NCBI GenBank assembly: GCA_015039465.1
Contig: MU130477.1
Location: 492,619 to 556,618, forward strand
Length of the DNA: 64,000 nucleotides
Direction of reading: 5' to 3'
From: Phlegmacium glaucopus
Taxonomy: Eukaryota; Basidiomycota; Agaricomycetes; Agaricales; Cortinariaceae
The notes under the pieces are model-generated. The model saw only the letters and a list, made by a program, of their open reading frames with translations, was not told the origin of the DNA and did no database searches. A program made the position numbers and the translations under genes. This document shows, in pieces, positions 1,141-49,900 of the stretch. How positions within the stretch are numbered: the stretch's first letter is position 1; every line of letters begins with the position of its first letter.

Positions 1141-1195
1141 ACTAGCGCTGGATAGTGCTGGATAGCACCATAGCACCATAGTAAAGGGTCCTTTA

Positions 1196-1360
1196 TTTGT
1201 AGTGCTGGACAGCATCATGCTATTCCTGTCTAGATGGCCTGTTACTGTAGAGTACTAGGGAGTGCTATATAGGCCTAGGTTACTACTATGGAGTACTACA
1301 TAGGTCTAGGTTACTACTACAGAGTACTTTATAGGCCTAAGTTACTACTATCCCAAAGCC
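1196..1360 (+). repeat. Short tandem repeat, ~33 bp unit
   Basis: About three imperfect units built on 'gagtact', 'ataggcctaggtt' and 'actacta' follow one another between 1245 and 1352. They are preceded by shorter 'gtgctggatagca' repeats at 1146-1215. No coding signal is visible. Confidence 0.7.
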
Positions 1361-2337
1361 ATATCTCTCTTTCGAGCACTTGGTTAGTTCCACCCGATGC
1401 TACAAAGTAGCATATAGACCATATAGACCATATAGTACCTTAATTCTTATAGTGTTGCATAACAAAAAAAAATTTTATATTATGTATAGGCTATGAATAC
1501 GAAATATACTAATGTGCAAAAAACGGGGTATTAAAGACTACTTGAAAGAAACTTATGTCAACGGAACCTGGACCTTGGTTTTATCAACAAACTATACCGG
1601 CAGTGAAACGAGGACATACCAAATCATTTCGGAAACCCAGTTATCAGTCGAGTTGTAAAGTGGGTACATAGCGAGTCGGTGGGTCTTCAGCTCGTTGCAG
1701 AAGTCACCTAACGAAACAAGTCACTCGTCAGTAAATTGAATTAAGAAAGTTTTAAACAAAGAATGCTTACATTCCTTTCCGTGCCCATCCTGCACGACGA
1801 GACTCATATTGTGCTCCATGGTATTGGTGGCCCTTCAACGTATCTATCAGGGTGAGATGCTGTTTCATAACGGCTCTATATTTATCTCTGTTGAGAGGGA
1901 TTTATTTCTTGTAGCCAAAGTTGACATATTCTTCGAGGCAGTTCTGGATCTATAAAAGGATTATTAGTGGGATGTCAAAATTATTTTAAAGGAGAAAAGA
2001 TGTACAGTGGTCATTACCAAAGCAATGACATGATCAGGGACGGTTTGTTTGAAGTCTTCAGGAAAAAGGTTTGCGAGACAATCATTGTCTGCATAGAAAA
2101 ACTTATGTATTGTGGTCGATATTGCTGGATGTGCAATGTTCTTGCATTTGCCCTTCACAACATGTCGAAAAGGATATCAGAAAGCGAAGAAAAGACAAAG
2201 AAAAAGCTTACATTCTCATCTTCTCCACCTCGAAGAAAACGGCCTTGGGTAAGAGCTTCATTGACTGCATGTATGACCAAGTCATATTCTTCTTGCTGAT
2301 TCCCTCCATCAGGAAAAATGACTTCTGCCCTAGGCTG
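1361..2337. other. No gene seen
   Basis: AT-rich sequence. The ORFs here (for example 1967-2299) overlap one another on both strands, lack recognisable motifs and look like chance. I see no RNA gene or element boundary. Confidence 0.6.
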
Positions 2338-2560
2338 TCCTGAAATGTCCTGGGGTGCCCCAGGCAGCTCAGGGCGCTCAGGTCAAGAGGTTGCCCTGGG
2401 GTGCAAGTTACCTATGTATGAAAAGTCTTAGGCTGTCCTGGGGCAACCTGAGGCAACCTGAGAGCGTCCTGAGGCAACCTGAGAGCATCCTGAGGCAACC
2501 TGAGAGCATCCTGAGGCAACCTGAGAGCAACCTGAGGCACCTGAGGCAGCCTTAGTCCCT
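2338..2560 (+). repeat. Minisatellite, 21 bp unit
   Basis: A 21-bp unit containing 'cctgaggcaacctgagag' is repeated about four to five times at 2440-2545, flanked by degenerate 'tgtcctgggg' units. Related 'gtgtcctgaggtgtcc' units recur at 3070-3230. Because 21 is divisible by three, every frame reads as a repetitive peptide; I regard these as non-genic. Confidence 0.85.
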
Positions 2561-3452
2561 TTGGATCTGATGCTAGAAAACATATATAAACCAGATATTT
2601 GAGTGGTCTCACACAACAGAATAATAATAATAATAATAAAATTATATTCAATTATTCTAAACATCATAGTAATAAAATAATAATAAAATAGTGATACATA
2701 AATATACTAGTATAATACTGGGGAAGTAGGAAATAAGAAAACAAAATTGTGGGTGGTTTATATATCTTTTGGATGGCGCACAGACCATTGGTCACATGAT
2801 CACAGATAAGCATGATTTCAAGCATATGGTGCTGGGTCAGGGTAGATTACATAAATTCCAAAAAAGGAAATTTTTTAAAGATGGTAGAGAATTGTTTTAG
2901 GACCCTGAATATGTTTAAATTATATTAATAGCAGCTCTCCTTATTGAGGAAAACTGCAAAATACTTTTCTGGATGCGGCGGTTAAAGATTTTCTAGCAAA
3001 ATTCATAAATTCTAAGGGACTCCCAGGGCCTCCTGATGTGATTTAATCCAGATGGTCAATGCACCAGGATACACTAAAGGTGTCCTGAGAAAATGGGTGA
3101 CACTCAAAACTTTATCTATGCTGTCCTAGGTTGTCCTGAGGTGTCCTTGGATAAGTGTGTAACACTCAAATTTTACCTGTGCTGCTCTAGGATGTCCTGG
3201 GGTGTCCTGGGGTGTCCTGAGTAGTGATGTGATACTAACAAATTACCCAAGGCTACCTAGGGCCAAAATCATTTTTCCTGATGTCCTTCGAATTCAGGTG
3301 GGCAAAGTAGATTTGTGTATTTCAATGAAATAATTCGCTGAGCAACTCTGTTTAATTTCTGGCAGAAGGTAGAGTGTTCATTGAAAACCTAGGTATAGAA
3401 TTAGTCAATATTAAATAACAAGGACGTGACACGTCTACCAAAATGCTCATAT
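2561..3452. other. Intergenic, simple repeats
   Basis: Contains an (AAT)n microsatellite at about 2620-2640, AT-rich sequence, and degenerate 'gtgtcctgggg' repeats at 3070-3230 related to the minisatellite just upstream. No gene is supported. Confidence 0.6.
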
Positions 3453-5289
3453 CTCAATTTGGAGAATATCCTAAAAGAAATGATCAATAATTTGACAAGT
3501 AAAATGACAAAGAAATCCGACCTGGCTCCAGAACGTTATCCGCAACCATTTGGTATTCAGCAATGGTGTTGGTAAGGATGAGGGTAGCCTGCTTGAGGTC
3601 CATCTCCCTTCGCGGAAAGGTGTTAACAAGGGCCACATGCCTTCTCATATTATTCTTTGCAGTCTCGAGCATGGCCTGCCAGCCCGGAGGATAATACTTC
3701 ATAGTGATTGGCTTGGGCTCTGCGTCCCTTGGCATTTTTGAATAGCGACGGGCCCGCCCAGTGGATGATTCATTGTCTTCATCATTATCGGTCTCGCCAT
3801 TCTGTTCAGTGGTACATTCGTTGTCGAGATTGACATCATCTTCAAATCCTGTTCGTTCGAGTTGACGCCTATATGATTGATGGGCAGCAGCATCCGCCAG
3901 GTTTCCAAGATGAGGTGGGCACACTGGACGGTTATGTGCACAGTGATCTTCGACTACATCAATATCATGATCCTGGATAAAATTTCAATACAAAATGAAT
4001 AATAATGGAATAAGAGTACCTCATTGTCAGGGTTAGGCAACTCGTCTATAATATTAGACACGTTATCAGTGACTGAGCTGCAATTTGAAGGGATTTATTT
4101 ACCTTGGGTGTAGAGCCGCTTGAGCCGCTGCGTCGTCAATTTCTATTGTTAGGTGATAATACAGTTAGTTTAGATGTTACAATGATTTTAACAGCAAGTT
4201 ACCTATATCCATGTTGATATCAGGGTTGATATCAGGTCTAGGACTGGGCTCGCGGCTTGCATATATGTCTTCATCGCTGTCGCTGCCATATGTTTGAACA
4301 TTGCTGCTGTTGATTTCTCCTTGGCCGTCATCACTATAACTATAGCTATTGTTATCATCATCACTGTCATTGCCGTCTTTATCACCATCACCATCATTGT
4401 CATCTCTGTCAGTTTCTGTGATACCAGGAACAGCAGTGTTGCGGTTGTGAATCAAGTTGAATTGGCTTTGAGACTGAGAGTTGGCTTGCAGACGTTGGCC
4501 TTGATCCTTTCAATTGTTGCAATCACGGTTGGTCCCTATTTCTTAGATAGTTAATATATGCTGTCATATGCATGTACAAGGTTATACCGGTCTGAGTGCT
4601 TGGCAGCGTTGCATTCCCCATTTGTGAGTTGTTGTCTGCGGCAGAGAACCCAAATCGCGACTCTGCTGAGGCCATCTGAAAGATAGGTTTTGGACCAGCC
4701 TGAGGCAACATTGCCGCAGATCGTGGTAGCTTCAGAGCAGTTGTTACTTTTGTATTTGAATCTTGCTTCTTGGAATTGGTTGAGAGTTGAATTATAGTTG
4801 AATTATAATTGATAAAATATTGTAGTTACCCTATTTTTCATAAAGCCTAAGGAGGCGCCATAGCATTCTCGGGTATAGTTTCTGGGATTCCATTGTTCTT
4901 CTTGGCAGTTTGATCTCTTGTTATGGGATTCAACGCATTTTCTAGTTGGTAGGCATGTCTGCCCTGACCACGGTTAGGCCGAACTGCTTGCCTACTGGTT
5001 GGTTCTCTGGTAGTTGGCACTCCGACGTTCTCTGTGCAGGGTCAGTGGGTTCTTCAATATATTCAATAAATATTACCTTTTTGTGTGCCTGCAAGCTCAT
5101 TGGTAGGAGCTATAGAGAAGACGGTAGTAAAGTCAGTCCATAAGTAAAATAAGGGTTAAAGTGAGACTCACCTTGTCTTTTACTGGTCAGCGCGTCACTA
5201 GAGATACCGGGACGTGCTGTCTTACTACTGGCTTGGTCTTTTACAGAGACAGTAGCCTTGCGTTTGGAAGCATTGGGTCTGGAAGGCAT
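3453..5289 (-). pseudogene. DUF6532-like gene, multi-exon, truncated
   Basis: Reading leftwards from an ATG at 5287-5289, a first exon (MPSRPNASKRKATV...) ends at a GTGAG donor at 5171. Further exons give a basic, Gln/Asn-rich stretch with HAYQLENALNPITRDQTAK near 4900, then an acidic Asp/Asn/Ser-rich linker (about 4180-4450), then YYPPGWQAMLETAKNNMRRH at about 3690. That last motif resembles the start of the DUF6532 domain found in many Agaricomycete proteins, often transposon-associated; the assignment is from memory of the family. The domain is cut short: after the ...NVLEPG segment and a plausible intron the frame meets TGA at 3453-3455, so most of the usual C-terminal domain is missing. 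Function unknown. Confidence 0.5.
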
Positions 5290-5463
5290 AGGGAAGCTTG
5301 GTAAGATATAGGAAAGTAAAAGATTTTGTTTTTGGCAGTATCAACTAGGAAACAAAAAGCGGTACTACATGACAATTTGAACTTATTTATTTGTGGCAGG
5401 CTTGAATTTTACCGACCCTGAGGTCAACCAGGGGATGGACAAATAAATAAAAAAGAAACACGT

Positions 5464-6171
5464 TGATAGGACCCAGGAGATGTCTAGGGATGTAAATGCA
5501 CCATTTTCGCGGTTTCACAACCTTCACAGTATACTTGCAGATGCTCACATATCATTGTGGATACTTGCAGATCATTGCAGGTCATTGCAGATCATTGCAG
5601 ATCATTGCACATACTCGCAGATCATTGCAGAATACTCGCAGATCATTGCAGATACTTGCAGTCATCACCAACATTTGCATTATCATTCGCAGTTACCAGC
5701 AGTTCTCACAATCTTTAAACACACTCCAACAAAGGTCACTCAGGTGACTGTATTACTCATCACCTTTATTTTTATCTTGTCTCCTTTATTTGGCTCTTAT
5801 CTCCTATGTTTCATTACCAAAATACCGGACCCATGTGACTCCACTTTAACCCACATTTTACATTCCTGTTTCACCTTTCTGCACTTAGCTATTGCTAGTT
5901 ACTATATTATTAGCAGTAGCAAGTAGGGTAACACAGGGGAGGAGAATGGACAAATTACCACAGTTTTGATCCCACCTTTGGAACATTGTACTAAGCTACT
6001 CTTGCACTCCTCCAAAATCATCCTGCAAACTTCGCTTTTTCTGCGCATTATCTCGCACTTTAAAGCGAACCTTTGCACCTCATAAAACCTCACTTTCACC
6101 TATTGAAGAGAACTACATCAACCCCACAAACTACATACTACTTGTGGTCTGTCCCCACCGCAGGTACATCA
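5464..6171 (+). repeat. 5' LTR
   Basis: TG...CA-bounded repeat, nearly identical to 9533-10272. It carries an array of ~11-bp units of the form 'atcattgcaga' at 5565-5660; this array is shorter here than in the 3' LTR and accounts for nearly all the length difference. Confidence 0.88.
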
Positions 6172-6174
6172 AAT

Positions 6175-6192
6175 TGGAGCCCACTGCGAGGG
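6175..6192 (+). other. Candidate primer-binding site
   Basis: TGGAGCCCACTGCGAGG begins three bases after the 5' LTR end. Starting with TGG is what complementarity to a tRNA 3' CCA end requires. I have not matched it to a specific tRNA, so this rests on position and the TGG only. Confidence 0.35.
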
Positions 6193-6360
6193 GTTCTTGT
6201 TCATTTCTCTTCAAAATCACCACAGTCTCTACTAGTCTCACAAAGCAGTCACTGGCCATTCAAGAGAAGACGACACAGACAAGGGGGCTTGGTTCGCACC
6301 CATCAAGCGAACCATCAGCATTCACACTCAACCTAGCTTTGCTTGCCTCACAAAAACACG

Positions 6361-7055
6361 ATGAACCACGAGTTATATCTACCACTTCCTGGTGAAGCTA
6401 CCGCACTGTTCTTTGATAAAGCAAAGCCTCACAAATTGCTTCGCTTTTTTGAGCACTTGGATAGGTTGTACAGCAGGTTTGGGTTAGAGGATGAGGGAAG
6501 AAGAAGAGATATATGGTTGGGTATACGGATTGGGAGATGGAGGAGTGTTGGAAGACATTTCCAGAGTATGGAGACTCTACTGCCGCTTATAGCAATTTCA
6601 AGAAGGCCATCATGTGAATTTATCCCAGCAGCAACGCCAGCACCCTTTACACTATTCGCGACATGGAGCATCTTATTAGCGAAAGACAGTGTCTTGGAAT
6701 TACGACTTGTGAAGATTTAGCAAACTTCCATACAGCATATTTTGGCTTAACTCAGTGGCTAATCAGCAAAGGCTACATCAGCAAGCAGGAGCAGCAGCGC
6801 GGATACATGCAAGCGATACCACAGTCTCTTATTCCTGCAGTAACCACTAGGCTTCAAATTGTTCATCCGCTGCATAACCCTTTGTTGCCTTATGAAGTAG
6901 ATGCAATTTTCAAAGCTACTCGTTTCGCTTTGCAGAGTTCTGCTGCATTTTTGCCTGCCTATTTTGCACCTCGACAGCCAGCTCAGCAGCCTCAGCCAGC
7001 ACAGATTGCCAGAGCTACTTCGCAGTCTCGGACTTTGCAACACATCACAAGCTAG
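6361..7055 (+). pseudogene. gag-like capsid region, frameshifted
   Basis: From the ATG at 6361 the frame reads a capsid-like N-terminus (MNHELYLPLPGEA..., FFEHLDRLYSRFGL). Near 6520 the natural reading moves to the frame that encodes DWEMEECWKTFPEY, is interrupted by TGA at 6615-6617, and resumes with ISERQCLGITTCEDLANFH and FGLTQWLISKGYIS up to 7055. These motifs resemble the gag region of basidiomycete Ty3/gypsy-like elements, a family judgement without a database search. At least one frameshift and one stop make it non-functional as written. A nucleocapsid CCHC knuckle is not visible. Confidence 0.65.
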
Positions 7056-14306: not shown

Positions 14307-15099
14307 GGACTTCTAGGATGGTTGCAAATAGTTGTATGATATAAGGTATGAGGAATTTGAGAGTTGACGAGTGTTGAGTTCAGAGAGAGGGAGAAAGATG
14401 GTCTACAACCACCAAACAAAGGAGTTGTGGAAACCTGGGTATAAAACACCAGATTTAAACAACAGTTTGTGGGTGGAGCGAGAAGGAAACTATCGAGGTG
14501 AGGTTTAGAGCCATCGAAATCTGGGTATAAAACACCAAATTTCTAAGGCCTGTAGTCAAAGATGATGGAGGGAGGTGGGAGTGGGACTTATGATCCGAAG
14601 TCGTGATTGTTGATTTTCTAAATAAAGTTCAAACTGAGCTCTTAATCTAAATTCTCACGCTTATCTCACAAACTTATACACACACAACAAAGGTGAACGT
14701 TGAACTTGAACGTTCAACAACTCGTTATCTGGTGTTATATACCCAGATGATGAGTTGTTTAAGCATCTCTGGTCTGGTCTGGTCTGGTCTCGTGGACACA
14801 AGCGTTCGACTTGAACCACTTGTTGTCTGGTGTTATATACCCAGATTACAAGTCGGTTAACTGGCTCTGGCCTGTCATGAATCTCCTGAGTTGTCTTCAC
14901 TGCTACCTCTGACTACTGGCCTCCCCATCATCTTTGCTGCTACCTCTGACTACTGGCCTCCCCATCATCTTGACCATTCAACCACTCGACCCCTTACCCC
15001 CATCATCTTGACCATTCAACCACTTACCCCCATCATCTTAACTCAATCAACTCAATCCCAAGTCCCAGTACTTTACAGTGCCCCACGCTTCCGAACAGA

Positions 15100-16860: not shown

Positions 16861-17419
16861 AGCGTGGGGCACTGTAAAGTACTGGGATAGTTTTCCCCAA
16901 TTCATTCTTAGGATTGATTGAGTTAAGATGATGGGGGTAAGTGGTTGAATGGTCAAGATGATGGGGGTAAGTGGTCGAGTGGTTGAATGGTCAAGATGAT
17001 GGGGAGGCCAGTAGTCAGAGGTAGCAGCAAAGATGATGGGGAGGCCAGTAGTCAGAGGTAGCAGTGAAGACAACTCAGGAGATTCATGACAGGCCAGAGC
17101 CAGTTAACCGACTTGTAATCTGGGTATATAACACCAGACAACAAGTGGTTCAAGTCGAACGCTTGTGTCCACGAGACCAGACCAGACCAGACCAGAGATG
17201 CTTAAACAACTCATCATCTGGGTATATAACACCAGATAACGAGTTGTTGAACGTTCAAGTTCAACGTTCACCTTTGTTGTGTGTGTATAAGTTTGTGAGA
17301 TAAGCGTGAGAATTTAGATTAAGAGCTCAGTTTGAACTTTATTTAGAAAATCAACAATCATGACTTCGGATCATAAGTCCCACTCCCACCTCCCTCCATC
17401 ATCTTTGACTACAGGCCTT

Positions 17420-17446
17420 AAAAAAAAAAAAAAAAAAAAAAAAAAA
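17420..17446 (+). repeat. A-run, 27 nt, at a junction
   Basis: Uninterrupted A27 exactly where similarity of the right foldback arm to the left arm stops ('acaggcctta' continues as 'gaaattt' in the reverse complement of the left arm). The complement-only block begins right after it. Confidence 0.95.
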
Positions 17447-18350
17447 GTACCCTCCATCCTCACCTTCTCACCAGCTATTCCTACTCCTTCGGTCATCTGT
17501 TCCCATCTCACTCTTTGGACCTCTATACTTCTTGTGCTCGGTGAATTTGTTGATCATTAGACCCATATTTTGTGTCCTTCTGTTTCATAGCTCCACTCCA
17601 AATCTCGGCAGCTTTAGACCCATATTTTGTGGTTTAAAGATTCCGGACATCAGCTTCTACTACCTCCCTCCACCCTCACCCTGAATACTAGGCTTCAGCA
17701 CTAACAACTAAAAGATTTATTTCAAGTTTGACTCGAGAATTAGATTTAAGAGTGCGAATAGAGTGTTTGAACATGTGTGTGTTGTTTCCACTTGCAACTT
17801 GAACTTGCAAGTTGTTGAGCAATAGACCACAATATATGGGTCTACTACTCAACAAATTCGCAGAGACCAGACCAGACCAGACCAGAGTACCTGTGTTCGC
17901 AAGCTGAACTTGGTGAACAGCAGACCACAATATATGGGTCTAATGTTCAGCCAATTGACCGAGACCGGAAAGTACTTAGAGGACTCAACAGAAGCGACGA
18001 TGGAGACTGATGACCGGAGGGGTAGTAGAACTGGTAAACTGGTGAATGGGGGTAGTAGAATTGAGTTAGTTGAGTTAGGGCTCAGGTTGGAAGCAGACCA
18101 CAATATATGGGTCTAATGTCCAACCAATTGACCGAGACCGGAGAGTACTTAGAGGACTCAGCAGAAGCGGCGATGGAAACTGGTGAGCTGGTGAATGGGG
18201 GTAGTTAGTTGAGTTAGGGTTCAGGTTGGAACAGCAGGCCACAAAATATGGGTCTAATGTTCAACCAATTCGCCGAGACCTGAGAGTACTCAGAGGACTC
18301 AGTAGAGATGACGATGGGAACTGATGACCGGAGGGGTAGTAGAGCTGGTG
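17447..18350. repeat. Non-reversed complement of the foldback's left end, with internal tandem repeats
   Basis: Complementing this stretch base by base without reversing gives sequence that aligns to roughly 14340-15060, strongly from about 17585 on. For example 'agaccacaatatatgggtct' here is the direct complement of 'tctggtgttatatacccaga' there. It contains about three tandem units (starting near 17920, 18091 and 18234). It should not be read for genes as written. Confidence 0.85.
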
Positions 18351-21298
18351 AGCTGGTGAATGGGGGTACTAGAATGAGTTAGTGGAGTTAGGGTTCAGAT
18401 TGGTAACAGGAGTAAAGCATTGGACCGGAAGTTACGATTGAATACTTTCGGGGCCGGTAACTAACGTTTACTGTAGCGGAATGAGTCTGTGCTTCATGTA
18501 TTGAAGAAAACAGAAAAAGCGAGCTTTAAGGTTAGAAGTAGTCTGCTACTACTGTAACTCTTCCTGTGTCAGCCTTCGAAGACAAAGCAGACCTAACACC
18601 TACAGACAGGTTCATTCAAAAGAACAAGCGAGTATAAAGGTAAGTTTTGATTCATTACGTAAACATCTGAGGAGTTGCAAATTGCAGGTAGCTTCTTTGG
18701 TTAGGTGGGTCAAGGATCGAGAGGTGGAGAGGATTGGCCCCGTGGATGAGAGGCTAAATATTTGAGAGTGGAGATGGAGGTGAAGACGACGGTAGCCGTC
18801 AAAACTTCACCCACCCGCATTGGGTCGTCGGCACTTTTCCCGAGTACAAGCAGGTGAAAGGTTCATTAATGAAGTTGAGGTAATAGCTACTACCCGTTCC
18901 AGAAGACATCTTCTGAGCGACAAACTCTTTTGTTGATGGCAAGGAGGTACAGTAGACTGACAGAAACTACTACTAATAAGGGTAGGAGACGTTCCACCTA
19001 GTGAAGGAGGGTTAGTTAAGGCTGGAGGTATGTAGGAGTCATAGTTCTCGTAAGTATCTTACTTTCTAATACTATGTTACTAGTTACAATCATAAAGGTG
19101 GGAAAAAACAGATAGAGCTTTAAATGTTTTATATGTAATGTCTACGACCCTCCTCCTGTGGAAGTAGCAGTAAGGTAACCTAGAGAGTAGCGTAGCTCCG
19201 TGAGACGGTACGTCCCTTGAGTCTACATGTTCCGGTCCTGTGGATGCTTAGCGATTTGCAGTAGGATAGTTAAACCACCACTTAACTACTAGTTTCGAGT
19301 TGTTTCAGAAAACCTTGCTGTATCGACCCTCCTAACTGTTTATATCCTCAGCATAATTATTTGAGTAGCTAGGAATAGATATAGGAGGTGTTAGCAACAA
19401 TTAAGTATGGTGGATTAGTTTGGAGCGTAGGTACGGAAGACAGGTAACAGGGGCTACGCGTTTCTTCAAGTTCCTAGTCTGGTCAGAAGAAGTTGTATAC
19501 TTGGTCGGTAGAAGGAGGACGAATTGCGTGAAGCTTCTCGCATAGTTGTAGAAGTTACGAGAAGTTAGCCCAGGTTGTTGTAGACTCTCACTACTATACC
19601 CAGTTCTTTCAAAACTTGGTGGGCTAAAATACCTATGTTACCTTCTAAGAGACGCTTGAAGGGGAGTAAGGGGTAATAGGGGAGGTTGCCGGCGTAGAGT
19701 TTTGGGACTTCTGCCCCATTTAGGTAAGTCGTAGTCCTTCGTGGGATGTAGACCGTCAGATAAACCTGCACCGCTCTGCAAGTACCTAGTTAAACTGTTC
19801 CTATGTAAATGTCTTTGCTCCTTCCTCGTGGATATGATAGGAAACGTAGCCCCCTCTTTACCCTCGATCGAAAAAGAGGAAGTAAGACGGATTCGTACCG
19901 ACAGTATCTGGTAAAGATTTGAGTTTGACCACTCGTCTAGATTAAGACTGTTTACAGGCTCGTCTTAGACTGGAAAGACTTGTCTTTGGCTGTCTTAAAG
20001 ACTCAGTCTGTTCCAATCCTTTAGTTACGAACTAGGAATGGTATCTAATGATTTTATTAATACTTGTTGTCCTTAACCTGAAAGGAAGCCGTGTCGTTTT
20101 TCTGGATTCTTTAACACGGTTTTATGGATGGTTTACCTGGCAATACCTTTTCATTCGATACCTGTTGTTGGAAGGGTTGGTTTTTTTTCAATAAAGAGAT
20201 GATGGCTCTAGGGTATCTGACGGAAGTCAGTTAGGATGTGTTGGGTGATCAGTTTCTGGTGTAGGTTAGGGTGGGTAGAGTCGATTTGGCTAGTCGTCTC
20301 CGGGGTTGCGCTCGGGTGTGTGTTGCGTGGAGTCGGTTATTACGAAGGCTTTTGGTCCATGTGGTAGGGATGGTTAGCGTCACCGGAGGTTGCACCAAGC
20401 CGGGGAAGCTTCGCGTTCTCTAGCTTACGCCTACTTGTCTGTGCATTCGCGGAGTTTCTGCGTTCGCTACAGCTCTACCCACTCCTGCTTCCCCCCGTCT
20501 TCTGGTTTCCACCCTCTCTACCCTTTTTCCGGTTCCCCGACTTTTTTTTCTTTCCCTAGTCCAAGCATACTTGTAGGGTTATAGAAGCCAAGCATGATTG
20601 CTTAAACTGTCCTTTTGCTCGCGCCTGTTTCGTGCTCTTCTCCGTCACCGGTTCCTCCGGTGATTTTATATATTCATTCATTCATAGATGTAAAATGCCG
20701 ATAGATTGTGTAGTGTGTCCTTTTGGCTCGCGCACGAGCGCTCGTCACCCGTGTTTTAACGGGGTGGTGGGGCAAGAGCGTGACGGTGCAGTGGGTACGG
20801 TCCGTGGTGACGGTCCGTGTCGGCAGTGGTTGCGGCGAGCCTAGACGTTCTTCTATGGTCGTCGTCGTCGTTGCTACGGTGGTCGTGACTCCTGCTGTGG
20901 CCGTCACTGCTGTGGCCGTCACTTCTGCTTTGGCCGGCGTACAGGTGGTCGTCCAGGTGGTCGTCCTTGTCACCGGTGCTGTTGCTGTTGCTACTGCTGT
21001 CGTCGTCGTCGTCGTTGCTGTAGCTGTAACTGTCGGCAGGGTGGGGAGCTGGATGGGGAGCGTTTTGGCACGGGTATCGTCGTTGGTGCTGGCATCGTCG
21101 ATCGTGGGGCCATCGTCGGTGGTGCAGGCATGGTCGGTGGTGTAGGCATAGTCGATGGTGCAGGCATGGTCGGTGTTACAGGCATGGTCGACGGTGTAGG
21201 CATGGTCGACGGTGTAGGCATGGTCGACGGTGTAGGTGTGGTCGACCATGCAGACATCGACGGTGCAGATATCGTCGGTGGTGCAGGCATGGTCGGTG
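18351..21298. other. Non-reversed complement of 21299-24238
   Basis: Position for position, in the same direction, each base is the Watson-Crick complement of the downstream segment at an offset of about 2946. Spot checks at 18355, 18595, 18775, 19075, 19314, 19432, 19615, 20101, 20461 and 20701 all match over 40-60 bases, several without a mismatch. The block ends exactly where its partner reaches the A-run at 24238 and abuts the partner's start. ORFs inside it as written (for example 20674-21249 on the minus strand) are by-products of complementing repeats. Most likely a record or assembly error. Confidence 0.95.
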
Positions 21299-23279
21299 GA
21301 CCACTTACCCCCATGATCTTACTCAATCACCTCAATCCCAAGTCTAACCATTGTCCTCATTTCGTAACCTGGCCTTCAATGCTAACTTATGAAAGCCCCG
21401 GCCATTGATTGCAAATGACATTGCCTTACTCAGACACGAAGTACATAACTTCTTTTGTCTTTTTCACTCAAAATTCCAATCTTCATCAGACGATGATGAC
21501 ATTGAGAAGGACACAGTCGGAAGCTTCTGTTTCATCTGGATTGTGGATGTCTGTCCAAGTAAGTTTTCTTGTTCGCTCATATTTCCATTCAAAACTAAGT
21601 AATGCATTTGTAGACTCCTCAACATTTAACGTCCATCGAAGAAACCAATCCACCCAGTTCCTAGCTCTCCACCTCTCCTAACCGGGGCACCTACGCTCCG
21701 ATTTATAAACTCTCACCTCTACCTCCACTTCTGCTGCCATCGGCAGTTTTGAAGTGGGTGGGCATAACCCAGCAGCCATGAAAAGGGCTCATGTTCATCC
21801 ACTTTCCAAGTAATTACTTCAACTCCATTATCGATGATGGGCAAGGTCTTCTGTAGAAGACTCGCTGTTTGAGAAAACAACTACCGTTCCTCCATGTCAT
21901 CTGACTGTCTTTGATGATGATTATTCCCATCCTCTGCAAGGTGGATCACTTCCTCCCAATCAATTCCGACCTCCATACATCCTCAGTATCAAGAGCATTC
22001 ATAGAATGAAAGATTATGATACAATGATCAATGTTAGTATTTCCACCCTTTTTTGTCTATCTCGAAATTTACAAAATATACATTACAGATGCTGGGAGGA
22101 GGACACCTTCATCGTCATTCCATTGGATCTCTCATCGCATCGAGGCACTCTGCCATGCAGGGAACTCAGATGTACAAGGCCAGGACACCTATGAATCACT
22201 AAATGTCATCCTATCAATTTGGTGGTGAATTGATGATCAAAGCTCAACAAAGTCTTTTGGAACGACATAGCTGGGAGGATTGACAAATATAGGAGTCGTA
22301 TTAATAAACTCATCGATCCTTATCTATATCCTCCACAATCATTGTTAATTCATACCACCTAATCAAACCTTGCATCCATGCCTTCTGTCCATTGTCCCCG
22401 ATGCGCAAAGAAGTTCAAGGATCAGACCAGTCTTCTTCAACATATGAACCAGCCATCTTCCTCCTGCTTAACGCACTTCGAAGAGCGCATCAACATCTTC
22501 AATGCTCTTCAATCGGGTCCAACAACATCTGAGAGTGATGATATGGGTCAAGAAAGTTTTGAACCACCCGATTTTATGGATACAATGGAAGATTCTCTGC
22601 GAACTTCCCCTCATTCCCCATTATCCCCTCCAACGGCCGCATCTCAAAACCCTGAAGACGGGGTAAATCCATTCAGCATCAGGAAGCACCCTACATCTGG
22701 CAGTCTATTTGACGTGGCGAGACGTTCATGGATCAATTTGACAAGGATACATTTACAGAAACGAGGAAGAGCACTATACTATCCATCGCAAATGGGAGTA
22801 ATGGAGCCAATATTTCTACTTCATTCTGACTAAGCATGGCTGACATAGACCATTTCTAAACTCACTGCTGAGCAGATCTAATTCTGGCAAATGTCCGAGC
22901 AGAACCTTACCATTTCTGAACAGAAACCGACAGAATTTCTGAGTCAGACAAGGTTAGGAAATCAATGCTTGATCCTTACCATAGCTTTCTAAAATAATTA
23001 TGAACCAAAAGGAATTGGACTTTCCTTCGGCACAGCAAAAAGACCTAAGAAATGTGCCAAAATACCTACCAAATGGACCGTTATGGAAAAGTAAGCTATG
23101 GACAACAACCTTCCCAACCAAAAAAAAGTTATTTCTCTACTACCGAGATCCCATAGACTGCCTTCAGTCAATCCTACACAACCCACTAGTCAAAGACCAC
23201 ATCCAATCCCACCCATCTCAGCTAAACCGATCAGCAGAGGCCCCAACGCGAGCCCACACACAACGCACCTCAGCCAATA

Positions 23280-24237
23280 ATGCTTCCGAAAACCAGGTAC
23301 ACCATCCCTACCAATCGCAGTGGCCTCCAACGTGGTTCGGCCCCTTCGAAGCGCAAGAGATCGAATGCGGATGAACAGACACGTAAGCGCCTCAAAGACG
23401 CAAGCGATGTCGAGATGGGTGAGGACGAAGGGGGGCAGAAGACCAAAGGTGGGAGAGATGGGAAAAAGGCCAAGGGGCTGAAAAAAAAGAAAGGGATCAG
23501 GTTCGTATGAACATCCCAATATCTTCGGTTCGTACTAACGAATTTGACAGGAAAACGAGCGCGGACAAAGCACGAGAAGAGGCAGTGGCCAAGGAGGCCA
23601 CTAAAATATATAAGTAAGTAAGTATCTACATTTTACGGCTATCTAACACATCACACAGGAAAACCGAGCGCGTGCTCGCGAGCAGTGGGCACAAAATTGC
23701 CCCACCACCCCGTTCTCGCACTGCCACGTCACCCATGCCAGGCACCACTGCCAGGCACAGCCGTCACCAACGCCGCTCGGATCTGCAAGAAGATACCAGC
23801 AGCAGCAGCAACGATGCCACCAGCACTGAGGACGACACCGGCAGTGACGACACCGGCAGTGAAGACGAAACCGGCCGCATGTCCACCAGCAGGTCCACCA
23901 GCAGGAACAGTGGCCACGACAACGACAACGATGACGACAGCAGCAGCAGCAGCAACGACATCGACATTGACAGCCGTCCCACCCCTCGACCTACCCCTCG
24001 CAAAACCGTGCCCATAGCAGCAACCACGACCGTAGCAGCTAGCACCCCGGTAGCAGCCACCACGTCCGTACCAGCCACCACATCCGTATCAGCTACCACG
24101 TCCGTACCAGCCACAATGTCCGTACCAGCTGCCACATCCGTACCAGCTGCCACATCCGTACCAGCTGCCACATCCACACCAGCTGGTACGTCTGTAGCTG
24201 CCACGTCTATAGCAGCCACCACGTCCGTACCAGCCAC
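23280..24237 (+). CDS. Ser/Thr-rich hypothetical protein inside the Plavaka remnant
   Basis: Three exons join in frame: 23280-23500 (MLPKTRYTIPTNRSGLQ..., Lys/Arg-rich, likely nuclear), 23551-23613 and 23659-24237, with GT/AG introns of 50 and 45 bp. The product has an acidic Ser/Asp-rich region then about ten copies of a (V/T)PA(A/T)TS-type repeat. The frame stays open through the following A-run (read as Lys) into transposase sequence, making a chimeric ORF to the N gap. It replaces part of the transposase, so it was inserted or joined there; retained introns argue against a processed retrocopy. No domain recognised. Confidence 0.5.
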
Positions 24238-24262
24238 AAAAAAAAAAAAAAAAAAAAAAAAA
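24238..24262 (+). repeat. A-run, 25 nt, at a junction
   Basis: Uninterrupted A25 between the Ser/Thr-rich gene and the resumption of the transposase reading frame. It is also the exact end of the segment that has a complement-written partner upstream. Confidence 0.95.
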
Positions 24263-24780
24263 TTGCTTATCAGTCTCGCCAATCTCAATATGAACTTCCG
24301 AATGAAATCATCCAACCACGCCTTCCTTCTTTTAGCCCTTCTACCGGTACCGTCATTTATTCATCAGAAAAAGTGTCTACGTGGCCTGCTGGCAGATAGA
24401 CTGATACATGAATGCCTTGATTTTGTTCTTCAACCTTTGAAAACTGCTGCCAGTATTGGAACTATGATGTCTGATCCACTTGGATGGCGTCGATTTTGCT
24501 TTACCCCTCTAGCTGCATATATCATCAACACTCCAGAATCCACACTTATCACCGGAGTTGCAGGGAGGACCTCTTCGGTTACAATGGCTTCATATAAACA
24601 ACTGGGAGACAATTTCCGGCACGAACCACGCACAGCATCAACAACGCTCGCACAACTTCATGTGGTGGAGGAAAAAGCTGATCCATGGGATCTGGAAGCC
24701 TACTTTAAGGCAGCTTCACAGTTCCATTTGAATGGCGTTCATCGACCATTTTGGGTGAATTGGCCTATGTCTGATCCATC

Positions 24781-25258
24781 NNNNNNNNNNNNNNNNNNNN
24801 NNNNNNNNNNNNNNNNNNNNNNNNNNNNNNNNNNNNNNNNNNNNNNNNNNNNNNNNNNNNNNNNNNNNNNNNNNNNNNNNNNNNNNNNNNNNNNNNNNNN
24901 NNNNNNNNNNNNNNNNNNNNNNNNNNNNNNNNNNNNNNNNNNNNNNNNNNNNNNNNNNNNNNNNNNNNNNNNNNNNNNNNNNNNNNNNNNNNNNNNNNNN
25001 NNNNNNNNNNNNNNNNNNNNNNNNNNNNNNNNNNNNNNNNNNNNNNNNNNNNNNNNNNNNNNNNNNNNNNNNNNNNNNNNNNNNNNNNNNNNNNNNNNNN
25101 NNNNNNNNNNNNNNNNNNNNNNNNNNNNNNNNNNNNNNNNNNNNNNNNNNNNNNNNNNNNNNNNNNNNNNNNNNNNNNNNNNNNNNNNNNNNNNNNNNNN
25201 NNNNNNNNNNNNNNNNNNNNNNNNNNNNNNNNNNNNNNNNNNNNNNNNNNNNNNNNNN
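24781..25258. other. Assembly gap (478 N)
   Basis: Run of N inside the transposase. The coding frame before and after fits the same protein, but the missing part would be longer than 478 bases in a full-length family member, so the gap size may be nominal or the copy deleted. Confidence 0.95.
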
Positions 25259-26220
25259 GTCATGCTATTGATAATTGGTACATCCCAAAACTGGAATTTC
25301 TGCAGAGTGTCATTCCAAGTATTCACACAAACGGTATCGCACTACAATGGTCGGCGGACGGGACAGAACGCGCTCACATTGATGTAATTAAAGATCCCGC
25401 AGACCTCTCCAACAATCAAAACTATGAATCCCAAATCTGTCGACATCTTGACCGTGTAGAGAAATGTCAATGATTCAACCTTTCTACAGCAATTTGTGAT
25501 GCTGGGGTTGACTTTCGTGCAAGGTTTTCCTCAACAGACGAAGACGACAATGACTCCAATAGTATTTCCAGCGACGACTCAATCATTGAGACAATGGCTG
25601 ATCTTGTTAACCATATAAATCCGGTATCACAAAAGTCCTTGCGCTCTCATCCTGATTATTTTGCCCAAGCTGCCAACCTCGGGAATGGTCCACCCAGCCG
25701 AGTTCTACCAATGCCAGCCCGTACCTTTTGCTCGTCTCAAGCAGCCTTCCATCTCAACCGAGATCCATCATATAAATGTATGCTCATTGATGATGTGGCA
25801 ACTTTGTTTAATATTCCAGATTTACGTGAAGCACTGTCCAACTACATGCAATGTATCATTACAGATGGCAGATATATCAGAGCTCTTGGTGGCCGCCGCT
25901 CTGCATCCCGAGGACCACTACCATTTACACATTTGCAGATATGGAAGAAATTTCGTTTGCAGCATAAAGCATATCACTATCCACATGAAACCTTCCCGTC
26001 TGAGGCTGTAAATGCCTGCCCTCCATCTGGCGAATGGGAATTAGGGCGCCATGATCCAGTCATTGCTAACCTCGATCCAGCTTGCGAATGGCCACATAGT
26101 GGCCTTAAAGGTCTGGATACAGTTCATCTTGCAATAATTGAATACCGTGCTAACCCCCAAATTCTCAAGGTCATCAAGTCGTGGAATTGTGTCTCGTCTT
26201 CCGCATTATTCCAGACATGA

Positions 26221-32460: not shown

Positions 32461-33716
32461 TTGTGTTGAATAAGCACGCTGTATCTAATATCAATCATGC
32501 CTTATCATCCTATTTTTTCATTCTTTCATATTATGATCACCTTGTGTGACTGTTAAGTATACGTATCTGTTGCTCCCCGAGAATGGAGAGGATTTATGTA
32601 AAAAGGATGGAAGATATTGATCTTTGCGTTGCAACTAACAGTGCTATGATCAGTTGACTATCATTAAATTAAAGCTACTTGCGTATTTAATCAGTGAGAT
32701 TGTGGTTATGTAATGAGTGGCTAGTAAGTAAGCTAACTGGGTGAAAACACACGCAGTGTGTTCCAGACCCGGAAAGATCCAACGAGATAAGGTTTCCGAT
32801 ACGAGACGCGTGGGTGGGTGGGCCATGCTTTGGTATGTAGGATAGGTTGGGAAAGGGGTGTTTGACAGATGACTTGTTGTTAGATCTTTCGGATCATGAA
32901 AAAAGGCACTGTCATCTGGTGACATGCCGAAGCCAAGGGAGCGGCGGGTGGGTGAAAAGGAAAGGAAGTAACGCAGTAGAAGCTCGACTTGGGATTAATG
33001 TCGAGTGTTTCTACGCCAGCAAGGATAAAGAGAGAGAGAGGGATGTGCACGTGATGCACTTCCCGTCTTCTCAAAGACCATCTTTGCAAGTCACTAGCAT
33101 GTGACCGAGTAATATTTGTTGTAATAATTTCAAGCAAAATTCTTGTGTGACATTTGGATGTAAATTTGAGTTGCTTAGTATGTTTTGGGTGAAAGTACTT
33201 GGTACTTCCCGACCCAAGAAGCAGCCAACTCAAGGTTTCTGTAGATGCGAGACACGCTGCATGACCCAGTTATTAGGAGTCTACGACGCGACGAGTGTGT
33301 CTCATAACCCATAAATTAGGAGTAGTATTTGTCTTATTACACTTGGTTCTGTGATGTGAAACCATGTTGCAATGACAATGTTAAGGCTGCGCACCGTACC
33401 GTAATGGTAGTCGGCCGTAGACCCTATGGTCATATTTTCTGGACCTTTTGGCCTCCACGGTATGGATATGTACAGTATGCCGTAAAATCCAGTTCAGCAG
33501 TCCAAGGCTGTATCGTGGCCATGGACTTACAACCATATTTTGGACATCCCAAAGCCCTTCAACTTGAAGGTACACATGCTGTAACTGTACCATAACACCC
33601 ATGTACTATAGCTACGGTTATGGTGCGCTAGTGATGGGCAGGGGTTTGGGAAACCCCTGGGGTACAAGGGTAAGGGTAAGGAGGGTCAGGGTCAGGGTAC
33701 AGATTTTTTGACCCTT
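32461..33716. other. No gene seen
   Basis: No supported gene. 33330-33600 has many short inverted and mirrored words around 'gtatggatatgtac' and 'catattttggacat', but I could not resolve them into a defined repeat. Confidence 0.5.
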
Positions 33717-33910
33717 GAAAACAAAAGTAATTATACTTTTGGCGTAGTATGTAGTAGTGCGTTGTTTGTAAAATAGCCAGCAACGACTTCTAACGTAGTG
33801 CGTAGTGCGTAGTGCGTAGAAAAGTGTTGCTTGTAAAATAGCCAGCAACGACTTTTAACGTAGTGCGTAGTAAAGTAGTACGTTGTGTAAAAGTATGTAA
33901 CGATACTGTT
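33717..33910. repeat. Mirror (reversed, not complemented) copy of 34581-34782
   Basis: Reading this stretch backwards without complementing gives 34581-34782 at roughly 95% identity with one 8-base gap. For example 'cgatactgt' at 33901-33909 mirrors 'tgtcatagc' at 34582-34590. It spans non-repetitive words as well as the 'gtagtgc'/'cgtgatg' repeats. Confidence 0.8.
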
Positions 33911-34143
33911 AACGTAGTACATAACGTAGTAACGTTGATCTGAACGGAGGTCAGGGATACTCTATCGTTATCTTCTAACTCATTAGTTTCCCCGTTTATT
34001 AAAAATACACTAATGTTTAAGGCTATCCATTATTCCGGTCAATAACGGACCACAACTCGGATGTAGCGTTAAACGTTGTACGTTGACTATCCCGACGCGT
34101 GGCATCACTACCAGTTCCCATTGGGGCCCCACCTTAATCCGAC

Positions 34144-34216
34144 TGGGAATGGGAATGGGAGGTTTTTGGGAATGGGAACCGACTCCCATTCCCAAAACCT
34201 CCCATTCCCATTCCCA
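34144..34216. other. Long perfect-type hairpin
   Basis: Arms of about 33-34 bases ('tgggaatgggaatgggagg...' and its reverse complement) around a 6-base loop 'accgac', with one bulged base. Built of TGGGAA units. Confidence 0.85.
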
Positions 34217-34556
34217 AAGACTCCCCAACCTCCCATTCTTTGGGGTCGTCCCAAATCACGTTCCCAAACCAGGTTTAGGAAGGAGTTCGAAACATTAGGT
34301 TTCCTCGGAAGTTTCATCGATAATAAATTTTGTACAAGTCCCACAATTTCCACAAATTGTTATCTAAAATTTACTTTATCTCTCCCAAACTGATCATAAA
34401 ATTCGATGACTAACAACACTTTCGTCACTCCGGAGAAATCTAACGAAAAAGAGACTAAATTTCAGTTAAAATATCTATGTGTTGTCAATCTAGTGAGACT
34501 ATAGTCTCTTTATTTTTAAGGGTTTTTATGGGACTGGGGAGGTCTTCCCATTCCCC

Positions 34557-34880
34557 AAAAAAAAAAAAAAAAAAAAAAAAATGTCATAGCAATGTATGAA
34601 AATGTGTGGCATGATGAAATGATGCGTGATGCAATTTTCAGCAACAACCGATAAAATGTTCGTTGTGAAAAGATGCGTGATGCGTGATGCGTGATGCAAT
34701 GATGCAATTTTCAGCAACGACCGATAAAATGTTCGTTGCGTGATGATGTATGATGCAGTTTTCATATTAATGAAAACATGTGTCGTGATGCGTGATGCGT
34801 GATGCGTGATGCGTGATGCAAAGATGCAATTTTCACCAACGTATGATAAAACATTCGTTGCGTGAAGTGTGATGAAATGA
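34557..34880 (+). repeat. A-run (25 nt) followed by 'gatgcgt' repeat block
   Basis: A25 at 34557-34581 sits where the similarity between this block and its mirror partner ends. Then come repeats of 'gatgcgt' and two or three copies of 'aattttcagcaacgaccgat'-like units. Peptides from these frames are repeat artefacts. Confidence 0.85.
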
Positions 34881-46909: not shown

Positions 46910-49900
46910 CTAAGTAACTGCGACCTCTTGCGAACCCTCTAAAAATGCCATATCCAAGCCCATCTTCTCACAGACAAAAAATCTACCATCATGAGGCTCT
47001 CTAAAAGGTATCATCGCAATACAGCTGATAATATTCTTGACTAAAATGACTTGTAGCGAAGCAATTCCTTGGTATTGGCAGACCATCAGTGCACCACTTG
47101 ATTGGTCCAAGATATTGGGATCAGGGAGGCTATATTCTGATATAAGGGCAAGTGTCTCTTCATTTTCATTGACTTTGGCCTGAAAAAAATACTGAACTTC
47201 GCCAAAAACAGGGCTTTTAGTTGTGGAATCTTTATAAAACTAAACAATAGAATCGTAATTTCAAGTCGTTAGTCATATTTTAAGAGAATAAATAGACTTA
47301 CCATAATATTTCGTGAGATGCGAATCTTGTTCAAGGCTTTGAGTGACTCTTTCCATGCTGTCCGAACAAATTGAAGGTTGGGCAAACGCAGCCGGCTCCA
47401 TTTTCGTAAGCGCAAATCTTCATGAATTTGAATATTGTGTTGCAGAAAGAATATACGAATTGCATTCTTTTCAACATTGGTAATCGAGCGTGCGCATGTA
47501 TCTCCCATAGAAAGAATGAAATTGTCGCCAATATCTTCAGATAAGTGAGAGAGGGGCTTGTCTGGTGCCAAATCGGGTACTAAAGCAATGAGTGCATTCA
47601 CTTGGGCTCGTCGTGCTCCTCATTCAGCAAGGTTTGCAAATGGTTGAGATGGCTGTCGGATCTCTTCACCAAGATTTCCGATTGTTCTTTCCATTGGCCA
47701 CTGTGTATATCCACTACCAGGCCCAAGACGTGGCACTTCGGGTCCAATATGTAGCAATGCATGGTTGCTCTGTCGACAAAAATGTAACCGTGAGGCCTTG
47801 CGTTGATAGTAAAGTTCCTCAAACTCAAAGACGAATTGAAGCAAAAGGGTGTGGCCATGAACAAGCTGGATCTTTGTAATCGATCGCTGATGTAGTAAGC
47901 GAACGCCTGCAACGAGCTTGCAGTAATTCTTCCAATATTGAGTTGGAAGAATTCCGTAGAAAAAACCAGGCCCTAATCCAAATAGATAAGTCAAGAACTC
48001 CCAGGCTTTATACCCACTAGAGATCTTCTCGGCTGGATTTCGGGGGGGCCTATCAAATGAGCCGGGTAAATATGGCGTTGCATGGGCTACACGGCGTCCA
48101 TGATTTTTCCAAACATCTCCTACAAGCACAAGCCATTCCCAAGTCTGTTTGCTGTCTGTAGGATCACATTCTATTGTCCCACGCCAAAGTCCCAACAGCA
48201 GATCCGGAATATTAAGGGAGATTAGATGCATGAGGTCTCCACCAAAACACTGAGGAATGGGAAGTGTACGTTGTGGCGGAAATGCACTAAAAATGCTTGG
48301 TCGTGTAATTCCTGTCATCCTTCGGTTACGCTGATGCTCTGCTTGTGTACGTGATCCAAGAATAATGTCTAAGCCAGTTAAATAATCTCTGACTTTTCCG
48401 ATGGGAAGGTGATTGGCGTTTATGTCAGGATGATCAGATCCTTCAATGGAGTAGTTTTCAGGCTTGGAAAGGGCAGGATAATAATGATTTCCTCCTTCTT
48501 TTCGTCTTCCTTTGACTGGACAGTAGAGCCGACATCCAAAAGCCCCAGAATGTCCAGTAAGCCCATTCAAATAAGTGAGGCCAGGTCCGTCAGCCAAGCC
48601 CAAGAGAAGAAACAGGTCTGAAATAAAGGATTGGTTTTCGAAGGCATCCCAGATTGCTAATCCTTCTTTCATAAGCGCTGCGAGGTGATGAAAGCCAGGG
48701 AAGAGAAAAGACTCGATGTTTCCAGGTTTATTTGGTCCGGGGAAGAATCCACCAGGGAATATATGGCGCTTCTTGTAGCGTAGATCTGGTGCAAGATCGA
48801 GAATAATCCAAATGTAAATCCAACAGTCAGATTGTTTGCTTTGGTAAAGCTGGGCACCGTCTATTGAGAGCATGAGAACCATGTCATTGTCTTTGATTTT
48901 TCCAGATCGCACAGAATCAAGATACGCATCGCCATGGAAAATATCTTCATATTCATCGATGATAATTTTCTTGTCGGGACGTGCTTCAGCTTTTTGAAAA
49001 ATCGCCTTTGTGAGATTCAAGCGATATCGCATAGCCTTTGCACCCTCTGGAGTGCGCCAAAGTGCTTGTAGCTGCGGACCAATGGGCAGGGTAAGAAACT
49101 GCCGTTGAGGAATTTTCTTGACTCCACCGCTGGCTACCAATGCCTGGGGATCGTAGCGAGGAAGCATGCATTTTGTACATGTATCGAGCTGAGAAAATGG
49201 ACCGGTGTAGGCAATGCATGTATTAGGACACATGTCGGTCATCAATGGATAGACGCCTGTAATGCCTTTGATACGTTCCTTGATTTGAAAGAGGGATGGA
49301 ATAGGCTCATAATCTCCACCTTGTCGGTCCATTGCACGATGAAAAACCTCACGAGTCTGATTGAAGACTGCTTCCGATGTAGTCTCTGTGGCGAGAAATA
49401 ACTCAATTCCCGTCCGTAGCGCTTCATCTTCATCAAGATTAAATATATTGGTGGCAGGGTTTCGTAGTTGGTCGATTACTTCATCAGGGAGGCAGTCGTT
49501 GTCTAAGGAAGCATCATGAATGCATGCAATAAATTCCTGTACTAGTTTTAGTTCTTCAAGAGTTGCGAGTACTGGAGAATCTGCACTGTCTTGTGCAAGA
49601 ACTTCGGGAGCAGTGGAGGCTTGTTCATTATTCTGAGGTACCGGCTGAGGTTCTGGCTCACTCTGCTCGATATCTGCCAGGCTACCTGGATCAGGGTGCT
49701 GTGACTCATGGGTTCCATGTATATTATCATCCTGATTTATTAATTAAGTGCGCTACAATATCAGAGTGATGAAGGTATTAGTTCTACATACGTGTTCGTC
49801 ATCGTTTCGTGGACTCTCAGCACCTCTATCACTCCCGAAAAGTGGTATCTGAAATCCTACATCGACATCCTCGTGTTTTATGACCACCCCTTCTTCCATT

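Follow-up and report, generated by a model that had tools for sequence, protein, structure and literature searches.

A 2.95-kb block in the window (the whole stretch of 64,000 nucleotides analysed here, probably from the genome of a mushroom-type fungus) is the complement, read in the same direction, of the adjacent 2.94 kb. With a probability of roughly 97%, this parallel-complement block is an artefact of assembly, produced when a reverse-complement was only half carried out, and not new biology. Sequence that is either complemented without reversal or reversed without complement is termed half-turned below, and the main block and its partner are termed X and Y1. The features of the window that bear on this conclusion are as follows.

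17420-17446, plus strand: run of 27 A at the left edge of X, likely a 25-base placeholder written as A plus two adjoining A
17447-21298, no strand: block X, 3852 bases, a normal transposon copy complemented but not reversed
17447-18352, no strand: part of X without a partner next door, probably new sequence that extends into the gap
18353-21298, no strand: the stretch of X whose same-direction complement is 21299-24237, probably an overlap with the contig that was left untrimmed
21299-24237, plus strand: Y1, the partner in normal orientation, probably a single original contig; it forms the 5' part of a Plavaka-type DNA transposon
22378-22833: C2H2-like zinc-finger frame in Y1, with zf-C2H2 matches below the Pfam cut-off
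24238-24262, plus strand: run of 25 A, a gap placeholder within the transposon
24263-26220, plus strand: normal continuation of the Plavaka coding sequence, interrupted by an N gap
24781-25258, no strand: N gap of 478 bases
25594-26217: DUF6830 (E 5.6e-54)
33721-34556, no strand: second half-turned block, reversed without complement, whose left part mirrors the first bases right of the gap
34557-34581, plus strand: run of 25 A, a gap placeholder adjoining the second block
34582-34778, plus strand: normal sequence at the right gap edge, the mirror of which sits in the second block

The parallel-complement match

When 18353-21298 was complemented without reversal and globally aligned to 21299-24237, 2904 of 2953 columns were identical (98.3%), with 28 substitutions and 7 + 14 gap letters. 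This alignment upholds the initial annotation, which had described a same-direction complement of the adjacent ~2.9 kb. The overall match lies where it had been placed, except that it begins at 18353 rather than 18351 and that the last base of the partner is 24237, directly ahead of the A-run at 24238-24262. The right edge of the block does fall at the start of the partner, but the complemented block reaches 906 bases further left than had been proposed, to the A-run at 17420-17446. Its full length of 3852 bases, the nature of the A-runs as gap placeholders and the second half-turned block at 33721-34556 had been overlooked.

A search with the whole window complemented but not reversed gave one continuous plus-strand match between 18353-21298 and 21299-24237 (2948 columns, 98.47%, 5184 bits). 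Compared without gaps, the complement identity of X and Y1 is 60.9% at an offset of 2946 and 58.5% at 2939, two offsets being high because a cluster of indels splits the match. The remaining 48 tested offsets in the range 2920-2969 give 24-32%, and thus the match is far above chance. An ordinary self comparison of the window returned no long match between X and Y1.

The part of X that lacks a partner next door is in the same state. Positions 17583-18030 are the plain complement of 14487-14934 (98.0%). In a normal copy on another contig (locus L002, contig C143), the complement of 17577-18030 matches 614-1066 (98.2%) and the complement of 18019-19934 matches 1167-3088 (98.3%), the latter running across the 18352/18353 border. 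Thus, the complement of 17447-18352 continues straight into the partner sequence in that copy. Furthermore, 17446-17587 as written forms an ordinary inverted repeat with 18227-18370 (about 80%), and therefore shares the half-turned state of that stretch.

X is not a copy of Y1, as 1.5% of the sequence differs. Over its last 1.2 kb, X is identical to Y1. The first 1.4 kb has 15 differences, and at 13 of them the complement of X reads CpG where Y1 reads TpG or CpA, so the filler carries a different, less decayed version. The CpG base is also kept by at least one other compared copy at 12 of these 13 sites, and the remaining two differences are private to Y1, so X looks like an ordinary copy of the family.

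Gap placeholders and half-turned flanks

Exact runs of 25 A occur 157 times on the plus strand of the assembly and once on the minus strand, compared with 0 and 1 for exact runs of 24 A and 15 and 4 for runs of at least 34 A. (A search with a 27-A pattern had no match.) A cell has no knowledge of which strand gets written in an assembly. The 25-base runs lie nearly all on the written plus strand and are therefore gap placeholders. Within the assembly, gaps of 25 bases read A and longer gaps read N. A false reading frame at 23672-25387 crosses both the A-run and the N gap and includes a lysine run; at the position of 24238-24262, the transposon copy on contig C200 has other sequence and no lysine run.

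Block edges coincide with gap or contig edges at 17446/17447, 21298/21299, 24237/24238 and 34581/34582, as well as at two loci elsewhere (L065 and L059). X spans from the edge of the 27-A run to 21298, and Y1 from 21299 to the edge of the 25-A run. At the second block, 33721-33909 mirrors 34582-34778 (93.9%), reversed without complement; its composition score is -37.0, and the score places its edge at 33582. Both complement-only and reverse-only blocks are present in the window.

Half-turned sequence also recurs elsewhere. As written, X has at least 16 matches on at least nine other contigs, although on four of nine (C237, C183, C10 and C184) these are short, at 53-114 bases. All nine contigs matched by X as written have an N gap or A-run no more than 2.9 kb away, and eight have one within 1.4 kb. 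For comparison, 9 of 29 normal-sense places have a gap or A-run within 1.5 kb (the 29 are a subset of the 52 other places matched, and some share a contig). Y1 has normal-sense matches on many contigs. Untrimmed overlaps that touch the gap edge are seen at 34582 in the window, at L065, where 76 of 77 bases match at 1281, and at L059, where 6094-6401 mirrors 4591-4891.

A composition score gave -34 for X versus +36 for its partner in a first run, whose training loci also contained half-turned sequence. The score was later trained on 68,279 bases, all of them 3 kb or more away from any gap. With this version, 2 of 43 held-out 1-kb chunks were negative (lowest -10.5), and among 46 control flanks, taken from both sides of 23 gap-free segments, three scored under -12 and none under -20. 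Of 10 sampled 25-A sites, three have a flank under the latter value, versus 0 of 46 control flanks; at 6 of the 10, a half-turned flank was not clearly evident. Some scores have the wrong sign: that of 23282-24237 within the normal partner is negative, and those over 1 kb beside the gaps of loci L055 and L056 are positive. We attribute these to tandem repeats, present in Y1 and L055, and in L056 to a block of just 401 bases. The negative score prompted consideration of the right third of the partner (23282-24237) as a half-turned piece, an idea that was rejected when 23206-24010 matched six of six copies as written and none of six when complemented. In the same part of Y1, 23505-23550 and 23614-23658 begin with GT, contain a TACTAAC or CTAAC box and end with AG, and can be read as putative introns.

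Coding sequence regained by half-turning

One such reading frame comes from a block beside an N gap on contig C200 (locus L053). Complemented without reversal, it holds a frame of 663 codons, whereas the longest frame as written has 116. The product matches the Plavaka transposase PF18759 (E 1.5e-67, 228.6 bits versus a Pfam cut-off of 26.3), and the complemented block also yields DUF6830 (E 1.7e-52). In tblastn searches, the three normal pieces of the window match this locus in its complemented form only. Normal coding likewise returns on half-turning of sequence to the right of a 48-A run on contig C51 (L052), to the left of the gap on contig C27 (L054) and in X. The half-turned DNA is a copy of a Plavaka-type DNA transposon (PF18759, DUF6830). 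The element itself is a bystander, a repeat on which an assembly is likely to break, and did not cause the transformation.

Origin of the block

The layout suggests a simple series of events. A scaffold with gaps would have been extended by long reads, and the consensus for the left end of the contig at 21299-24237 would have been either reversed or complemented, but not both. This half-turned consensus may then have been laid down whole to the left of that contig. Such a filler would begin with about 0.9 kb of new sequence, the rest being overlap with the 2.94-kb contig to its right that was never trimmed off, and whatever remained open of the gap would have been written as 25 A. The same half step, as reversal without complement, could have produced the block at 33721-34556. 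The initial annotation first proposed that a strand had been complemented but not reversed in assembly or gap filling, and this is backed by the strand-biased 25-A runs, the recurrence beside gaps and the return of coding on half-turning.

Flank extension of the PBJelly type appears to fit best, because the shape is that of new sequence plus untrimmed overlap with a contig end. In the available text of its description, PBJelly takes a gap to be 25 or more N, incorporates flank-extending reads and thereby reduces the gap, and overfilled 7-16.7% of gaps in three drafts (English et al. 2012, PMC3504050); the default minimum gap of its summary utility is 25 bases (PMC6240028, available text). The assembly shares with that description the gap unit of 25, flank sequence assembled beside a shrunken gap and the overfilling of some gaps, and has the layout of PBJelly output, a 25-base gap unit with flank extensions. 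It differs in that PBJelly is described with N, whereas the placeholders here are A, and in that the available text describes no orientation fault, which we infer from this genome (PMC3504050). That the program was PBJelly itself is slightly favoured, the tool and the faulty step both being deduced. No report of a complement-only or reverse-only assembly fault was found in literature judged by titles and abstract starts.

A variant that overlaps with this explanation, to which we give a somewhat less than even chance, is that another program made the same half reverse-complement, such as a gap filler, a scaffolder or a strand-converting script that puts A for unknown bases. Another program would be in keeping with the N in longer gaps and with the absence of N-to-A replacement from the available PBJelly description (PMC3504050); against it, the unit of 25 bases and the layout of extension plus gap agree with published PBJelly (PMC3504050) and the 25-base default (PMC6240028), as far as the available texts go. 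Two other candidate origins fail on the direction of the match. A long read that is chimaeric or has a missed adapter (sequence, adapter, reverse complement) would place two stretches side by side, as here, and missed adapters occur in about 1% of PacBio reads according to the available text of the PBJelly authors (PMC3504050). Such a read yields a reverse complement and not a parallel complement, which refutes this highly improbable origin. An ordinary inverted repeat or hairpin, misread in the initial annotation, has the least to recommend it of all. A true inverted repeat does adjoin the block (17001-17424 versus 14540-14963, 99.5%), but the match between X and Y1 arises on complementing without reversal, their direct same-direction identity is 13.5% at an offset of 2946, and this reading is refuted by a match that is parallel rather than reverse-complement.

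There is also the prospect of a real parallel-complement (A<->T, C<->G) duplication by a cellular copying process, as claimed for 'swinger DNA' and as offered by the initial annotation as its alternative. The letters do form a 2.95-kb parallel complement, and X beside Y1 is, as in swinger sequences, an A<->T + C<->G transformed stretch adjoining normal sequence. Also, the CpG losses in Y1, which make up 13 of the 15 differences in the first 1.4 kb, would be expected if X, which has GpC in place of CpG at most such positions, were shielded from CpG decay, but 12 of the 13 CpG sites are kept in other copies and the two other differences are private to Y1. Furthermore, the blocks go with assembly gaps, the placeholders follow the written strand, and complement-only and reverse-only blocks both occur. 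A real duplication predicts neither the strand bias of the 25-A runs, nor the recurrence beside gaps, nor the restored coding, and we know of no polymerase that makes a parallel complement. Overall, such a duplication is very improbable.

Implications

The letter transformation A<->T + C<->G in X is the same as that of swinger DNA (Seligmann 2016, PMC4942731). According to the available text of that paper, swinger DNA had so far been detected only under this rule, swinger sequences occur in GenBank, and the rule is derived from reversal without complement. The two differ in that swinger DNA is attributed there to polymerase activity in the cell (PMC4942731), whereas the blocks described here follow assembly gaps and placeholders. 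Swinger DNA of the A<->T + C<->G rule, and false genes, can thus arise simply from data handling, through a half-done reverse-complement. It is conceivable, if rather doubtful, that many public genomes contain parallel-complement and mirror blocks next to placeholders of 25 bases because a long-read gap filler in wide use has this fault, and that some of the swinger DNA reported from sequence databases comes from such blocks.

Standard searches test a sequence together with its reverse complement and do not connect a half-turned stretch with its source. A simple screen of other assemblies would look for strand-biased runs of 25 A and for complement or mirror matches beside gaps. As for the present genome, the organism is unlikely to contain kilobases of the sequence written in its assembly.

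Extent of the Complemented Block

The parallel-complement relationship claimed in the initial annotation is borne out by alignment. Complementing the window without reversal brings 18353-21298 into alignment with 21299-24237 (2948 columns, 98.47% identity, 5184 bits). In a global alignment of the complemented overlap part of X (the half-turned block, that is, complemented or reversed but not both) with Y1 (its normally oriented neighbor, part of a Plavaka-type transposon copy), 2904 of 2953 columns agree; the rest comprise 28 substitutions and 21 gap letters. Direct same-direction identity at an offset of 2946 is 13.5%. Complement identity at the other offsets tested is 24-32%, except for 58.5% at offset 2939, where the X/Y1 match resumes after an indel cluster.

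Although this 2.95 kb parallel complement stands, the block begins at 17447 rather than at 18351 as originally given, and is therefore longer. To the left, plain complementing matches 17583-18030 to 14487-14934 (98.0%), and 17636-18030 is the mirror (reversed without complement) of 17030-17424 (97.7%). A normally oriented copy on another contig of the assembly (C143) matches the complement of 17577-18030 and 18019-19934 at 98.2-98.3%, passing uninterrupted over the 18352/18353 border. Furthermore, 17446-17587 as written is an ordinary inverted copy of 18227-18370 (~80%), and thus the half-turned state is common to both. Together, these matches place X at 17447-21298. The features of the window are as follows.

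17420-17446, A27 run, left border of X
17447-21298, X, 3852 bases, left edge at the end of the A27 run
21299-24237, Y1, partner of X, right end at an A25 run
24238-24262, A25 run, right border of Y1
24781-25258, N gap, 478 bases
33721-34556, second block, reversed without complement, right end at the third A-run
34557-34581, third A-run, A25

The window also holds a true inverted repeat (14540-14963 and 17001-17424; 424 bases, 99.5% identical, ~2 kb apart) whose arms are possibly transposon arms, and whose right copy ends a few bases into the A27 run. Elsewhere, a minus-strand frame of 570 codons (47620-49332) matches Transposase_21 (tnp2, PF02992, E 1.8e-9).

Half-Turned Blocks on Other Contigs

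As written, X has at least 20 matches in the genome; four fall on the contig carrying X and 16 are spread over nine others. Among the matches listed, an N gap or a run of 25 or more A lies no more than 2.9 kb away on all nine contigs, and a gap or A-run lies within 1.4 kb on eight. The ninth is C200, where the complement match to normal window sequence reaches base 7947 of the stretch taken from it (L053), directly before an N run at 7948. For comparison, a gap or A-run is found within 1.5 kb at 9 of 29 normal-sense places (L002-L030), which were taken from 52 other places listed and include several on one contig. The matches are short (53-114 bases) on C237, C183, C10, and C184, four of the nine contigs.

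A composition score, which weighs each stretch against its half-turned version and is summed over 1 kb beside the gap, was set against 43 held-out control chunks, whose minimum is -10.5. Six of the nine contigs score lower than that (C200, -36.6; C27, -13.8; C237, -20.5; C183, -44.3; C10, -35.9; C184, -60.9). For C51 the score is slightly negative (-3.4); for C120 (+29.4) and C245 (+18.5) it is positive, yet homology still reveals a half-turned part in both, a tandem array in the former and 401 bases in the latter. In the window, 24012-24237, directly before the A25 run, consists of degenerate tandem repeats whose coding unit is 'ATTSVPA'-like, and the complement of this array lies in 21073-21298; the half-turned array on C120 (L055, about 4990-5655) is longer and adjoins an N gap.

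Coding capacity is also restored by half-turning. Complemented without reversal, the C200 block is free of stops over 663 codons in one frame (longest as written, 116), and the 663-residue protein from that frame has matches to Plavaka transposase (PF18759, 1.5e-67) and DUF6830 (1.7e-52). Given the range over which Plavaka elements occur, the host is likely an agaricomycete fungus. By tblastn, the zinc-finger, Plavaka, and DUF6830 pieces of the window are found in L053 only in its complemented form. Complementing is likewise needed to find the zinc-finger piece in X and on the left side of the L054 (C27) gap, and the DUF6830 piece right of an A48 run in L052 (C51). As-written matches were obtained in Y1, in window sequence to the right of 24263, at L051 9889-9999, on the left side of the L052 A48 run, on the right side of the L054 gap, and at L056 (C245) 2250-4145; all fall outside the blocks called half-turned.

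A-Runs as Gap Placeholders

Across the assembly (60,534,613 bases, 259 contigs), runs of exactly 25 A number 157 on the plus strand and one on the minus strand. Runs of exactly 24 number zero and one, and runs of 34 or more number 15 and four, respectively. The A-runs are gap placeholders, because a natural run would have no reason to favor whichever strand is written out in the assembly. The run at 24238 sits within a coding frame, where it reads as lysines, and the C200 copy carries different sequence at the matching point. A mechanically called open frame of 571 codons (23672-25387) crosses both this placeholder and the N gap, and automatic annotation could call it a protein. Longer A-runs can mark half-turned places too: the block in L052 begins at 1621, at the right edge of the A48 run (1573-1620).

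Ten A25 sites were sampled, chosen by eye at rough intervals among 100 listed of the 158, together with the one T25 site; one of the ten (C162) adjoins a transposon copy known beforehand from the normal-sense search. Flank scores below -20 occur at three of the ten (L064, L067, L068), and neither at the T25 site nor in any of 46 control flanks, three of which score below -12. L065 is a fourth site with a half-turned flank, by mirror overlap. At L070 an equivocal mirror match (182 columns, 86%) does not reach the A-run, and one flank of L069 scores -19.1. Nothing half-turned was found at the A-run in the other four (L061, L062, L063, L066).

Anatomy and Probable Origin of the Error

The blocks share a layout. 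X comprises about 906 bases of new sequence and an overlap with the entire Y1. In the second block, 33721-33909 mirrors 34582-34778, which starts at the first base past the A25 run. In L065, 635-711 mirrors 1281-1357 (76 of 77 identical), likewise the first bases past an A25 run, and in L059, 6094-6401, ending on the right at an N gap, mirrors 4591-4891 (88.7%). Each of the four carries new sequence plus untrimmed overlap with the adjoining contig end, and each reads as a whole block complemented or reversed, never both.

The PBJelly paper (PMC3504050) defines a gap as 25 or more N, describes how flank-extending reads are assembled and incorporated so that the gap is made smaller, and reports 7-16.7% of gaps overfilled in three drafts. 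The block layout fits flank extension as described there; we infer both the tool and the faulty line within it.

What favors a real event in the cell is the pattern of differences between X and Y1. Over the first 1.4 kb, complemented X departs from Y1 at 15 bases, 13 of them being CpG in the former and TpG or CpA in the latter (18476-19425 vs. 21422-22371). Such a one-sided pattern is also expected if X is real, with GpC replacing CpG at most of those sites. However, the CpG base is retained at 12 of the 13 sites in at least one other copy compared, and the remaining two differences are private to Y1. The complement of X therefore resembles either an ordinary, less decayed member of the family or a read consensus, and the argument for a real event fails. 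Many indels separate X from Y1 in the middle part (X 19765-20113), and over the last 1.2 kb the two are identical after complementing, a combination that may be read as a consensus of mixed reads. In this transposon family, the TpG and CpA at the 13 sites of Y1 point to methyl-cytosine decay or RIP-like mutation.

No paper naming the half reverse-complement fault was found in the open-licence literature searched. The letter transformation in X is the same as the swinger rule A<->T + C<->G, in which sequence is claimed to be letter-exchanged by polymerase in the cell. According to Seligmann (2016; PMC4942731), swinger DNA is detected for now under this rule only, and swinger sequences in GenBank are also referred to there. 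The present case is an example of how swinger entries can come from data handling.
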